Shown piece by piece: positions 18,081-29,864 of a stretch of 64,000 nt of DNA. The stretch spans positions 55,372 through 119,371 of the forward strand of contig PMOK01000267.1 of assembly GCA_003162425.1 (NCBI GenBank), in the 5' to 3' direction. The notes beneath the pieces were generated by a model. The model was not told where the DNA came from, made no database searches, and worked only from the letters and a program-made list of their open reading frames with translations. Positions within the stretch are counted from its first letter, which is position 1; each line of letters opens with the position of its first letter. The position numbers and the translations under genes are program-made. The stretch comes from Bryobacterales bacterium (GTDB lineage Bacteria; Acidobacteriota; Terriglobia; Bryobacterales; Bryobacteraceae).

Positions 18081-18481
18081 CTACGTCCCAACCGTGAGCT
18101 TGGCACGCAGCTTCCTGGTCCACCGAAACCGTACGATCCGCAGATCCCACACGTGAAGGTTGAAGCCAGGGCTTGAAATGCCAAGCCAGTAAGCGCCTCG
18201 GCGGAGTTTAGGCAACCGGAACTGCCCGTTCCCTTCGGCGGTAATGTCTAGGAGAAGGGTGTCCACGCCTTGGACCTGCAATTGAATCCGGGCGCCCGGT
18301 ATTTTCCCGCCCAATTGGTCGGAGTGCCGATTACGGAGGTCGCCCCAATCGGACGGGAGTACTGGACCATCTCATTGCCGCCGCAGAACACCCCTTTCGG
18401 CCCTGATGCACTTTGTCCAGAGGCGGATACAGAACTCAGGAGGATGACGAACAGGACGGACGTTTTGACACCCGACATCAC
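18081..18481 (-). pseudogene. Frameshifted secreted protein with carboxypeptidase-regulatory-like domain
   Basis: Two overlapping frames join into one protein. The first, from an ATG at 18481, gives a signal peptide (VKTSVLFVILLSSVSASGQ) and CGGNEMVQY. The second gives GARIQLQVQGVDTLLLDIT, then GNGQFRLPKLRRGAYWLGIS and SPGFNL, the pattern of a Cna-B/carboxypeptidase-regulatory beta-sandwich. The frame changes by one base near a GGGAAAA run around 18300-18310. Repaired, it would be about 130 residues. It could also be a sequencing error in the homopolymer. No partner gene is evident. Confidence 0.65.
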
Positions 18482-22274: not shown

Positions 22275-22369
22275 GGAAGCTAGTCTTGGCCGGTGCTGGG
22301 CCTGGTCTTCAAAACCAGCGTGGGGCACTCCGTGTCGCAGGTGGGTTCGACTCCCACTAGCTTCCGCCA
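22275..22369 (+). tRNA. selC: tRNA-Sec (anticodon TCA)
   Basis: A long tRNA with an eight-base acceptor stem (GGAAGCTA pairing with TAGCTTCC), anticodon stem CTGGT/ACCAG with loop CTTCAAA (anticodon TCA at 22309-22311), an extended variable arm, T-arm GTGGG-TTCGACT-CCCAC, discriminator G and encoded CCA. These are the hallmarks of bacterial selenocysteine tRNA, so the organism should decode some UGA codons as Sec. No selA, selB or selD lies in the window. A tyrosine integrase gene starts about 70 bases downstream, marking selC as the insertion point of a mobile element. Confidence 0.96.
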
Positions 22370-24156: not shown

Positions 24157-24588
24157 TCAAATTAAGCCTTCTCTATTAGCGGATGGATCGTATTCGAATC
24201 TGGACAGCTTCGCTTTCTCCCGCTGCTCCCGCAGGTTTCTGAAAGGATCGGAGCCTGGCGGAGTTGGTGATGCGTTCTCCTCGCTCGTCTGCGGCGGCGG
24301 TTGCTCTGGCAGTGGTTGAGAAGGTTTCTGCCGCCGTCGCCTCAGCCTTGAGATGCAGACGCGGAATTGGCCGTACGACATATCGAGTCCATCGCGGCCT
24401 GCAGCCTCCCAGATTTCCTTGAGCTTCATGCCCGCTGCGAGGCTAGCCTCAATTTCGGCCCAAGCCCAAGTCACTTGCCCGATCTTAGTTGCCGGCTGGG
24501 TTAAAGGGAGGGAGCGCAACTGGACCAAGTCCGATCTTGTTTTTCTTCGGCGCGCTTTTGGAGTATTGTCCATCGACGTTGCCTGCAT
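24157..24588 (-). CDS. TraK-like (DUF5338-type) mobilization protein
   Basis: The start at 24588 is chosen for its GAGGGAG Shine-Dalgarno. The 143-residue protein has a basic N-terminus (KARRRKTRSDL), then WAEIEASLAAGMKLKEIWEA and GLDMSYGQFRVCISRLRRRR, the pattern of TraK/DUF5338 proteins. A proline-rich, charged C-terminus follows. TraK binds oriT in IncP-type systems and helps assemble the relaxosome. It diverges from a CopG-like gene across a repeat-rich region, matching the oriT-traK arrangement. The family call comes from the WAEIE and LDMSYxQFR motifs. Confidence 0.65.
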   Translation of the reverse strand: MQATSMDNTPKARRRKTRSDLVQLRSLPLTQPATKIGQVTWAWAEIEASLAAGMKLKEIWEAAGRDGLDMSYGQFRVCISRLRRRRQKPSQPLPEQPPPQTSEENASPTPPGSDPFRNLREQREKAKLSRFEYDPSANREGLI

Positions 24589-24592
24589 TTGC

Positions 24593-24977
24593 TCCCTCAC
24601 TTGATAAGGAAATGGCGGGAGGGGCGCGGGACGGTCAAATTCGCGTTTTTTGCGGTGTGCAACAGTTTGCAAACAGTTTGTTACTAAAGTGCATCAGTTT
24701 TCGGTTCGCGTGAGGGGGTGCATCAGTTCGTTAACAAAGTGCATCAGATTGTTACAGTGGCCCCCTCCAGGACGGCTCCCCAGACAACCAAAAATGCGTA
24801 GTGGAACATAAGGGTTGGGATGTGCCGCTGCGCGTTTTGATTGCTTTGTGGTTGCTGGGCTAGCACTTCTTACGGGATGCACTTCGGTCGAAATGCATCC
24901 CAGTTGGGATGCGGCATTAATTCTGTCGATTTTTGTCATCCCGAGAGGCCTTCGCCATTTCCTTATCAGGTGAGGGA
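24593..24977. other. Candidate transfer origin (oriT) with inverted repeats, iterons and a hairpin
   Basis: The gap between the divergent traK-like and CopG-like genes is bounded by a 25-base inverted repeat (24593-24617 and 24953-24977, one mismatch, core CATTTCCTTATCA) that includes both genes' ribosome-binding sites. Inside are three copies of GTGCATCAG at 24689, 24718 and 24739. A strong hairpin, GGGATGCA pairing with TGCATCCC with an inner TTCG/CGAA, lies at 24874-24901. No gene is seen. The arrangement suits protein binding and nicking at a transfer origin, but no nic site was identified. Confidence 0.55.
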
Positions 24978-24985
24978 CCCCACAT

Positions 24986-25399
24986 ATGGCACAGCGAGCG
25001 ATTCGATTCTCTGAAGCTACGGACAGAGCCATTCACGAAGCGACCGAGAAGCGTGGCTTCTCGTCACCGACGGCGTTTATCCGTCACGCCGTGGAGCAGG
25101 AATTGGCCGGACACGCGGAACAACTGGTGACTACCGAGCAGCGTCTCGTCGCTGGTATCGAGCAGGTAAAGGGGGAAGTGATAGCGCTGGGGCGGTCTCA
25201 GCAGGCCTTATTCGCGTTAGTGGACAGTCTGGCTAAGATCCTGTTGACCTGTATTCCCGAACCAGACATACACGCGTTAGAAGCCGCCGTCGCTAGGGCG
25301 CAAGGCCGTCATGCCCGACTGTTGAAGAGTGCAGGCCAGGCAATGGGCGCCGATTCGCGGCTGACAATGCAGGAGTTGGTGAAGCATGGCGAAAGATGA
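24986..25399 (+). CDS. CopG-like relaxosome accessory protein
   Basis: A 137-residue protein that begins with a short ribbon-helix-helix pattern: QRAIRFSEATDRAIHEA, then GFSSPTAFIRHAVEQELAG. A long helical, coiled-coil-like region follows (TTEQRLVAGIEQVKGEVIAL). This layout is found in DNA-binding auxiliaries of relaxases such as TraJ/MobC types. It overlaps the start of a broken relaxase gene by 14 bases. Its divergent partner is the TraK-like gene. It probably binds the intervening repeats. Confidence 0.6.
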   Translation: MAQRAIRFSEATDRAIHEATEKRGFSSPTAFIRHAVEQELAGHAEQLVTTEQRLVAGIEQVKGEVIALGRSQQALFALVDSLAKILLTCIPEPDIHALEAAVARAQGRHARLLKSAGQAMGADSRLTMQELVKHGER

Positions 25400-25536
25400 G
25401 GAGCGTAAGTTTCGGCTTCGGCCGCGGAAGCCAGCCGCGCGGAGCGAGCGCCGTGCTTTGGCTTTTGGCGTACAAGACCATCATGCATTATGCTCGCGTG
25501 AGCGGCGTCCGGAGGCGCAGGAGGTCCCGGGTTTAA
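25386..25536 (+). pseudogene. N-terminal remnant of a relaxase gene
   Basis: The first frame reads AKDEERKFRLRPRKPAARSERR. After a one-base shift the next frame reads LLAYKTIMHYARVSGVRRRR and then meets TAA. Together this is how relaxases of TraI/VirD2-like mobilization elements often start, with a KFRLRPRKP motif and a MHYAR motif. The catalytic tyrosine and histidine domain is missing. A dead IS6-family element follows about 275 bases later. The identification rests on short motifs. Confidence 0.5.
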
Positions 25537-25810
25537 ATCCCAGTCTTGTATCCCTGGGCGAAACATTGGCCTGGGAAGCTGGTGATCTAAATCCTCCATC
25601 ACGCTACGAATGAGCTCTTCGTCCAGGGCACAGTGAATCAACTCCGACAGTGTATGTAATCGAATGTCCGGCACTGAGCCAGAAGGCGCGATCATTATCG
25701 TTCCCGGGCGATTCAGATGCGCCAAAAAAGGCCGGAGACCGTCCGGTGCTCGAAACGCGATGGTGAGCCAGCCAGCAGTGAGATTACATGCCTGTCAATC
25801 GACGCCTCTA
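25537..25810. other. Stretch without genes between the relaxase remnant and the IS6-type element
   Basis: I see no supported coding region. The sequence may be leftover relaxase DNA, but no frame shows a relaxase motif. Confidence 0.4.
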
Positions 25811-26629
25811 GGCTCTGGTGCAAACGCGCCTGCGCCAGGCGATGATGAGGAATGGAACGGTTCAACCCGATCGAGGCGGTGTTCAAAGGACGGCACTTCG
25901 ACGGGCAGATCATCATCTTGTGCGTGGCCTGGTACACGAGCTTCAAGCTGAGCCTCCGGGATTTGGTGATCATGATGGCGGATCGCGGGATTCCCGTGAC
26001 ACATACAACGATTCTCCGGTGGGTCCAGCGCTACCTTCCGGAGTTCGAGAAGCGCTGGCGTCGCTACGCTCGGCCCATCGGTGGATCTTGGAGGATGGAC
26101 GAGACGTATATAAAAGTTCACGGACAATGGGTGGACCTGTACCGCGCCGTTGACAAAGCGGGCCAGACTGTCGATTTCTTTCTCAGCCAGAGCCGAGACG
26201 TGAACGCCGCCAAATCGTTTCTGCGGAATGCAATGAAGAACACTCGCGTGCCTACGAAAATCACGTTGGGCGGCTATGCTGCCTCGCACCGCGAGAGATG
26301 CGAGAAGACGGTGAACGTCCGGGTCGCGTGCAGGTTCGATCCAGACAGTAATTGAACAATCTGGTCGAACAGGACCATCGGAGAGTGAAGCAACGAATCC
26401 GGCCGATGCTGGGATTCAAGCGATTCGATTATGCGGTCGTAACGATCTCCGGAATCGAGCTAGCAGAGAAGATCAAGAAGGGGCAATTTAAGACGGGCAA
26501 ACTCGGCGGGCGCAATGCGACTATCACGGAGCTTTGGAACGCGGCACTTGCAGCTTGACTCCATTCGCAATCACTCAACGAGGCGGAGCTTAACCGATCT
26601 CACCGTTGGCTTGAGTTTGCACCGGAGCC
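25811..26629 (+). mobile_element. IS6-family insertion sequence, degenerate
   Basis: An 819-bp element bounded by inverted repeats: GGCTCTGGTGCAAAC at 25811-25825 and its complement with one mismatch at 26615-26629. The GGCTC-TGCAAA terminus is typical of the IS6/IS26 family. No eight-base target duplication is visible. The single transposase gene inside is broken, so the copy should not transpose by itself. Confidence 0.85.
25852..26558 (+). pseudogene. Broken IS6-family transposase gene
   Basis: The first frame has the N-terminal helix-turn-helix and the first catalytic Asp in WRMDETYIKVHGQW. The second catalytic position reads TLGGYAAS where the family has TLDGYAAS, so Asp is Gly. The frame then shifts around 26280-26330. 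In the restored frame a TAA replaces the codon for the Tyr of the KYLNN motif. The catalytic Glu follows in NNLVEQDHRRVKQR. There are therefore three independent lesions: a catalytic missense, a frameshift and a nonsense codon. The order and spacing are otherwise those of IS6 DDE transposases (about 235 residues). Confidence 0.85.
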
Positions 26630-28732: not shown

Positions 28733-29864
28733 TGTAGGTCGCCAAAACACAGTCTGGCGGGTCAACCACCAGCACACCCGTTAGTCTTGTGATAAGAACG
28801 GATTCATGCATTGGCTGATCTTGGGTTTGTTCACGTGGCTGAGAAGTTTTATTCGGTCTCGTCATGACTTGGGGCTTGAAATCGTCGCCCTGAGGCAACA
28901 GCTGGTTGTATTGAAACGCCGAACCAAGCGGGCGCGCCTGCGCCGTTCCGACCGCCTGTTCTGGGTCATGCTGCGCCGACTGTGGTCGAAGTGGTCGAAT
29001 CCCCTTCTGATCGTAAAGCCGGATACGGTAGTTCGTTGGCATCGGAAAGGTTTCCGTCTGTACTGGCACTTTCGATCCCGAAGCAAAGTGGTCGGGAGAC
29101 CAGTCACCGCAGGCGATGTTCGAGCTTCCATTCACACCATGGCGAAGGAGAATCCAACCTGGGGTGCCCCGCGCATCCATGGCGAGCTAATGAAGCTCGG
29201 GCTTGAGATTTCCGAGCGAACCGTCTCACGCTACCTGTCCCGGATGCGTCGCACCGATGGGCCAACTCAACTGTGGCGAAGCTTTCTGAAAAATCACCGC
29301 GAGGTGATCGCCGGGATGGATTTCTTCACCGTGATCGGTGAACTTCCGGATTCTGTACTGCTTGTTTCTGATTCGCCATAGCCGCCGAGAGATCATCCAC
29401 TTCGATGTGACCGAGTCGCCCACCAGCGAATGGGTGGTGCAACAACTCCGTGAAGCATTCTCAGACAGTACCGAGGACCGATACCTGATCTTCGATCGAG
29501 ACGCAAAGTTCAGCTCCGACGTGCAAGGGTTTCTGGACTCGGCCGGTGTTTCGGCCATACGTACTAGCTACCGAAGCCCGTGCCAGAACGGAGTCGCCGA
29601 AAGGTGGGTTCGAAGTTTTCGGAACGATTTGCTGGACCGTGTGATCGTAGCCACGTCAACCGTCTTGCACCAGATTACCTGCACTATTATCACGCGGATC
29701 GCACGCACGACGGACTGAACAAGGATACTCCTCAAAGGAGGACGAAATCGATCAGGAATCCCGGTGAGCGACTGGTTTCGCTTTCTCGTCTTGGAGGTCT
29801 CCACCATCGCTATTCCTGGGCAAAGGCTGCGTGAGCGAGGCGGATGGATTATTGGCGACGTACA
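28733..29864 (+). mobile_element. Integrase-core insertion sequence, degenerate
   Basis: A 1132-bp element with TG...CA ends and 13-base terminal repeats: TGTAGGTCGCCAA at 28733-28745 and, inverted, TGTACGTCGCCAA at 29852-29864. It contains one frameshifted rve-type transposase gene. No target duplication is evident. It is inserted next to or within the minus-strand gene fragment at 28507-28732. Confidence 0.8.
28806..29834 (+). pseudogene. Frameshifted integrase-core (rve) transposase gene
   Basis: Three frames join into one protein of about 340 residues. The first has a hydrophobic start, LGLEIVALRQQLVVLKRR, a helix-turn-helix region TWGAPRIHGELMKLG and the first catalytic Asp in IAGMDFFTV. 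The second has RYLIFDRDAKFSS with the second Asp and SPCQNGVAERWVRS with the catalytic Glu. The third ends YYHADRTHDGLNKDTP and LGGLHHRY. The frame changes fall near 29335 and 29640. All three DDE residues remain, but the protein cannot be made in one piece. Confidence 0.85.

Follow-up and report, generated by a model that had tools for sequence, protein, structure and literature searches.

The window, by which we mean the whole 64,000-nucleotide stretch analysed here, carries a compact set of mobility genes beside a tRNA-SeC gene that is the target of an element insertion (Table 1). The integrase gene is followed by that of a small helix-turn-helix protein, labelled excisionase (AlpA)-like because its gene adjoins the integrase gene, and by two genes that diverge, as the initial annotation had them, and encode a TraK-like protein and an RHH (CopG-like) protein. 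Matched directly against Pfam, the TraK-like protein gave a weak hit (DUF5338, E = 0.035), and its family profile matched R751 TraK (36.4 bits, E = 6.5e-11), a score by which the family is homologous to IncP TraK. The corresponding link of the RHH family to R751 TraJ is weak, with 9 bits only (E = 0.016 on a small database), and a related Limnobacter member matches NikA-like proteins in Pfam below the curated cut-off (E = 2.6e-4). The same draft genome contains five more copies of the RHH gene, and comparison with the two closest copies in the genome gives a dN/dS of 0.13–0.15.

Table 1. Features of the element and of the interval between its divergent genes (window positions)
Feature	Position	Strand	Basis or remark
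tRNA-SeC gene, target of element insertion	22275..22369	+	ARAGORN
Tyrosine integrase, 451 aa	22374..23729	+	Pfam Phage_integrase, E = 8e-18
Small helix-turn-helix protein, excisionase (AlpA)-like, 101 aa	23704..24009	-	weak: HTH_17, E = 0.055; excise domain, E = 0.015
TraK-like oriT-binding protein (predicted), 143 aa	24157..24588	-	ATG at 24588; family profile against R751 (IncP) TraK, 36.4 bits
Left mirrored-leader arm	24593..24643		first 25 nt 24/25 identical to right arm
Iterons GTGCA(T/A)CAG, predicted TraK-like binding array	24657, 24689, 24718, 24739 (24657..24747)	+
Core GTAGTGGAACATAAGGG (consensus GGTAGTGGAACATAAAGG), predicted relaxase nick region	24798..24814
Arm 1, TGGGATG, predicted RHH-protein site adjoining core	24816..24822	+	covariation
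Hairpin GGGATGCA...TGCATCCC, doubled RHH-type site (predicted)	24874..24901
Arm 2, CATCCCA, inverted partner of arm 1	24896..24902	-
Right mirrored-leader arm	24927..24977
RHH (CopG/NikA/TraJ-like) accessory protein, 137 aa, intact	24986..25399	+	RHH family profile
Relaxase gene remnant, first ~45 codons, frameshifted	25386..25508	+	tblastn with intact C161 relaxase, 54% over 41 aa
tRNA-Pro-like T-arm fragment, directly 3' of relaxase stub	25514..25541	+
IS6-family transposase, truncated	25852..26355	+	NCBIfam IS6, E = 1.6e-48

Disrupted remnants of IS481/IS3-like transposases lie 3' of the element at 28806–29718. A search with exact 11- or 13-mers of tRNA 3' ends gave no convincing attR, and a single 12-mer at 29602 was rejected as a candidate since it falls inside a transposase ORF. 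Judged as an integrative mobilizable element (IME), the element thus has its tRNA, its integrase and a predicted oriT; its relaxase has been lost, and no attR is defined.

The interval between the divergent genes had been read as an IncP-type oriT and as the transfer origin of an element inserted at selC. Insertion at the tRNA-SeC gene and the oriT-like anatomy agree with the second claim, although the element is without a working relaxase. For the first, the agreement is one of anatomy: as in R751, a TraK homologue (the family match of 36 bits) diverges from an operon in which a relaxase gene follows an RHH gene, and the intergenic distance is similar (373 bp in R751, 395 bp in the window). 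In RP4, TraK covers some 200 bp on the side of traK and represses both divergent promoters; the target of TraJ is an inverted repeat that lies 8 bp from nic, and TraJ acts as a repressor at its own promoter (PMC7314908). The layout predicted here resembles that of RP4 and R751, with a binding array on the TraK side, an RHH site by the nick region and, likely, autoregulation. The IncP nick consensus YATCCTG/Y, however, is absent from positions 24591–24985, where the core reads GTAGTGGAACATAAAGG instead, which rules out membership in the IncP nick family; moreover, the relaxase domain is joined here to DUF3363 rather than to the TraI C-terminal region of IncP. The strongly helical iterons and the 30–50-bp mirrored leaders described below also differ from the R751 oriT, in which no mirrored leader rises above shuffled sequences and iteron periodicity is slight, so the IncP parallel is confined to layout and TraK homology. 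We predict from this arrangement an oriT that works like that of IncP and stands outside the IncP nick family.

A conserved core upstream of DUF3363 relaxase genes

The main feature of the interval, GTAGTGGAACATAA at position 24798, did not figure in the initial annotation; the iterons and hairpin named there are element-specific accessory sites, and the core lies elsewhere. All aligned copies carry GTAGTGGAACATAA exactly or with one change. For an unbiased test, relaxase loci were collected by protein alone, and 26 of them had upstream DNA; the exact 13-mer TAGTGGAACATAA is present in 23 of the 26, located 518–628 bp upstream of the relaxase start, with relaxase identity ranging from 85% down to 37% (the query itself aside). 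With its last base changed, the core also precedes the RHH-DUF3363 relaxase genes on plasmids of Comamonas (NZ_CP139995), Acidovorax (pYSCONJ) and Acidisarcina (pACPOL3). A search around two other DUF3363 relaxases, that of the Tn4371-like pPNAP01 and that of a Cupriavidus gilardii plasmid, did not find it, so the core is restricted to a subset of the DUF3363 relaxase family. RlxS/VirD2-type relaxases, known from Tn4371-like elements, Mesorhizobium ICEs and the CopG1-VirD2-1 pair of Bradyrhizobium, likewise carry DUF3363 behind the Relaxase domain. T4SS genes of Bradyrhizobium sp. SUTN9-2 are repressed by a CopG protein from the T4SS cluster that also contains virD21, encoding a VirD2-1 with DUF3363 (PMC11201211).

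Outside the core, sequence is poorly conserved among 52 non-redundant oriTs that have an RHH gene (among the matches listed). Raw core matches do not count as evidence, as about 120 chance matches to a 16-mer are expected in 257 Gb, and real sites were told from chance by RHH, arm and iteron tests. Rfam at the gathering score returned only tRNAs for eight loci; the core is therefore unexplained by any known RNA family. A 16-base core precedes the genes of one relaxase family in both Acidobacteria and Proteobacteria, and it also occurs in elements that have lost the relaxase. A cis site of this sort, located beside relaxosome genes and conserved together with the relaxase, is one mark of the oriT class, and we predict that the core is the nicking region of the Relaxase/DUF3363 relaxase.

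Some loci contain more than one core. Two divergent cores about 110–150 bp apart share one iteron set in L105 (6734–6895), L122 (5437–5598) and L144 (3384–3506); these predicted twin transfer origins lie beside an integrase gene with no relaxase nearby. In each of L121, L140, L154 and L176, a pair of cores points the same way at a spacing of about 250–850 bp, and those of L121 and L140 (both Dyella) are near an integrase gene and a tRNA. Two identical copies of the core with its flanks stand at 303 and 7691 in L153 as direct repeats 7.4 kb apart, which may be the borders of an element or the outcome of recombination between oriTs. In L044 (1456) and L166 (3077) the core is fused directly to relaxase codon ~146, as if the interval between oriT and gene had been deleted.

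Accessory sites flanking the core

On the TraK side of the core lie the iterons. Three had been counted; GTGCATCAG is indeed present at 24689, 24718 and 24739, and a fourth, diverged copy (GTGCAACAG at 24657) had been missed. Elsewhere in the 64 kb, GTGCAWCAG occurs only once, on the minus strand at 18403. Across the 52 oriTs (among the matches listed), 5-mer autocorrelation of the iteron region reaches z = 23 at lag 10, 14 at lag 11 and 12 at lags 20–21, with nothing between, and 5-mer repeats upstream of the core peak at lags 10–11, 20–22 and 29–32. Such phasing would be expected if proteins were lined up on a single face of the DNA helix, and the iterons, phased at 10–11 bp, are probably bound by the TraK-like protein. 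Iteron sequences differ between elements. Phased iterons bound by a TraK/RHH-type protein and travelling with a relaxase might instead constitute a partition centromere or a plasmid origin, and in some plasmids a ParA-like protein annotated as TraL does adjoin the TraK-like gene. Most copies, however, are chromosomally integrated with no adjoining ParA or Rep gene, and it is the relaxase-linked core rather than the iterons, which vary between elements, that is invariant. We consider such a role highly improbable, and on the last of these points the partition-centromere reading was rejected.

On the other side of the core we identified a pair of arms that had not been annotated, the right one coinciding with the right half of the hairpin. 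The hairpin noted earlier is real (ΔG = -9.2 kcal/mol, with shuffled sequences averaging -3.0; z = -3.9), with arms of 13 nt that are 92% complementary. In related elements, a short arm at about +16 likewise forms an inverted pair with a partner located roughly between +70 and +110 in the same element. For the 52 oriTs (among the matches listed), the mean arm pairing score is 7.17 within elements and 5.47 between them, and the best of 5000 permutations gave 6.15. Start-to-start arm distances display no helical phasing; the symmetry axis of the arm pair, among strong pairs only, is quantised near 11 bp (R = 0.55 against a 99% jitter null of 0.38).

The arms also covary with the RHH protein. The beta-strand AQRAIRF occurs with GGGATGC (the window type), PRRTIRL with CTGACG (the type of the C161 copy, see below), RGLR[ILV] with TTGCGCG and [IF]AIRV with TGTCGGAC. 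When the rest of the protein is held fixed, arm and beta-strand remain correlated (partial Mantel 0.223), a value as high being reached in 0 of 5000 permutations (maximum 0.170). Judging from this covariation, the RHH protein probably binds the arm pair.

The outermost features of the interval are the mirrored leaders. The 25-base inverted repeat reported earlier (24593–24617 against 24953–24977, 24/25 complementary) holds and extends to 51 nt at 75%, with a score of 25, whereas 200 Markov resamplings averaged 9.1 and never exceeded 13, and both arms do span the ribosome-binding stretch of the divergent genes, as had been claimed. Depending on where transcription starts, the two mRNAs might also share a nearly identical 5' end, as had been proposed. 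Leader mirroring scores 11.0 within elements and 8.8 between them (best of 5000 permutations, 10.0), and the window is among the strongest cases. Because the mirrored leaders match within elements and differ between them, symmetric regulation of the divergent genes is made more likely. The leaders would then probably be paired operators at which the RHH or the TraK-like protein represses both genes.

Regulation at the site is also what would be expected if the core were a promoter or operator of a transfer regulon common to mobile-element operons, with the oriT elsewhere or nearby; in relaxase-less elements the core indeed occupies a promoter-like place, 150–430 bp upstream of Int or AlpA-Int genes. 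The core is nevertheless unlike a sigma-70 promoter, the only promoter-like site in the scan being at 24731–24758, and two cores can co-occur, either divergent or in tandem. Furthermore, the core sits at the position of the IncP nic, between TraK-type iterons and RHH arms, and it tracks the relaxase. We regard a transcriptional role of this kind as unlikely.

Our favored interpretation, which we hold with high confidence, is that positions 24590–24985 are the oriT of a small integrative mobilizable element at tRNA-SeC, with the core as its nicking region flanked by docking sites for the TraK-like and RHH proteins. The oriT would be built in two tiers: a near-invariant core, GGTAGTGGAACATAAAGG, nicked by the Relaxase/DUF3363 relaxase, and element-specific docking sites around it, where phased iterons would dock the TraK-like protein on one side and the inverted arm pair the RHH protein on the other.

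Relaxase loss and relaxase-less relatives

The sole intact relaxase in the draft genome belongs to the copy on contig C161, in which a tRNA end, integrase, TraK-like gene, oriT, RHH gene and relaxase gene follow in this order; the protein combines a MobA/VirD2-type nuclease (PF03432, E = 4e-8) with DUF3363 (PF11843, E = 1e-10). No T4SS coupling protein (PF02534) and no TrbE/VirB4 (PF03135) were detected in the draft genome, which is an estimated 93% complete. The window copy is non-autonomous: its relaxase is a frameshifted stub of ~45 codons, so the element no longer works as a transfer unit and may be inert. This decay of the relaxase was absent from the initial annotation.

Two sister copies in the same genome, C53 (L002) and C125 (L003), have the same relaxase-stub junction as each other, identical to the base, after ~50 relaxase codons. 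Their RHH genes differ at 14 nonsynonymous and 30 synonymous positions, out of 308 nonsynonymous and 103 synonymous sites (p = 2e-9). Since sisters with a common stub junction differ mostly synonymously, these data suggest selection on the RHH accessory protein after relaxase loss. The stubs, of similar length, end directly at tRNA 3'-half fragments, tRNA-Met-like and antisense in C53 and C125 and tRNA-Pro-like in the window (25508–25541); in sequence, such junctions resemble the edge of an attachment site situated within the relaxase gene.

It is quite possible, if somewhat short of an even chance, that the window copy is a dead relic whose oriT, RHH gene and TraK-like gene have been decaying without function since the relaxase was lost. 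The frameshifted stub with the IS6 fragment behind it, the lack of an attR and the lack of a coupling protein or VirB4/TrbE in the draft genome all favor decay. On the other hand, the RHH, TraK-like and integrase ORFs are intact, selection on the RHH gene apparently continued after relaxase loss in the sister copies, and relaxase-less oriTs with all accessory sites are widespread. Decay of this sort concerns the present activity of the window copy and is compatible with its identity as an oriT. As an oriT, the window copy would retain the core, iterons and arms together with the RHH, TraK-like and integrase genes; its own relaxase being lost, it would be mobile only with a related relaxase and transfer apparatus supplied in trans.

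Core sites without an RHH gene also occur in Acidobacteria and Proteobacteria, where 23 non-redundant sites are near an integrase gene and 24 are not (among the matches listed). Both groups alike have matched arms and phased iterons. The 28 sites presumed to match by chance, most of them from other phyla, have no matched arms (p = 0.05) and no phased iterons (counts 29 vs 34), a control that was not blind, since its members were hand-picked by host names and by the absence of neighboring transfer genes. At an E-value threshold of 1e-5, a homologue of this relaxase is missing from eight of nine genomes with orphan sites, and a different relaxase could serve these sites.

Relaxase-less IMEs such as MGIVflInd1, MGIVchHai6, MGIVmi1 and SGI1 carry an integrase, an oriT-like site and sometimes a relaxosome accessory factor, and they need a helper (PMC5704250). 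The related elements described here resemble them in having an integrase and a predicted helper-type oriT without a relaxase, which suggests that the relaxase-less, integrase-side copies are satellites mobilised in trans. In Gammaproteobacteria, the MGIs rely for help on SXT ICEs or IncA/C plasmids, whose relaxases are of the MobH type (PMC5704250), whereas the oriT here is of the DUF3363-relaxase type and its hosts are mostly Acidobacteriota.

A 2.2-kb block with neither integrase nor relaxase inside is 97.6% identical in two species of the genus (L008, 8222–10411; L207, 9003–11232). It comprises a tRNA-Lys 3' half, an AlpA-like gene, an internally deleted TraK gene, an oriT, an RHH gene and a relaxase stub, and has a sharp end and unrelated right flanks. 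The sharing reflects either transfer or a shared insertion; the contig of the second species ends inside the tRNA.

Implications for accessory-site evolution and mobility detection

What is new here is the predicted nick core and the modular, co-varying accessory sites. A broader proposal, to which we give only slightly less than an even chance, is a two-tier oriT family with a nearly invariant nick core, common to a relaxase subfamily across Acidobacteriota and Beta- and Gammaproteobacteria, and private, co-evolving TraK and RHH sites. Such a family would support trans-mobilised satellites of soil Acidobacteria that carry an integrase and no relaxase and keep only the accessory protein under selection, and possibly also 2-kb elements without relaxase or integrase.

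In the literature searched, we found neither the core sequence in a transfer context nor DUF3363 paired with an oriT. MOB-suite typing in PLSDB lists all three core-bearing plasmids that were checked (Comamonas, Acidovorax and Acidisarcina) as 'non-mobilizable'. The family also offers a natural data set in which the specificity of accessory proteins, as RHH strand versus arm sequence, can be read directly and apart from relaxase specificity. If the core is the nick site, the 16-base signature combined with the arm and iteron tests would expose plasmids open to mobilisation and satellites without a relaxase, both of which escape the relaxase-based tools now in use, above all in Acidobacteriota.
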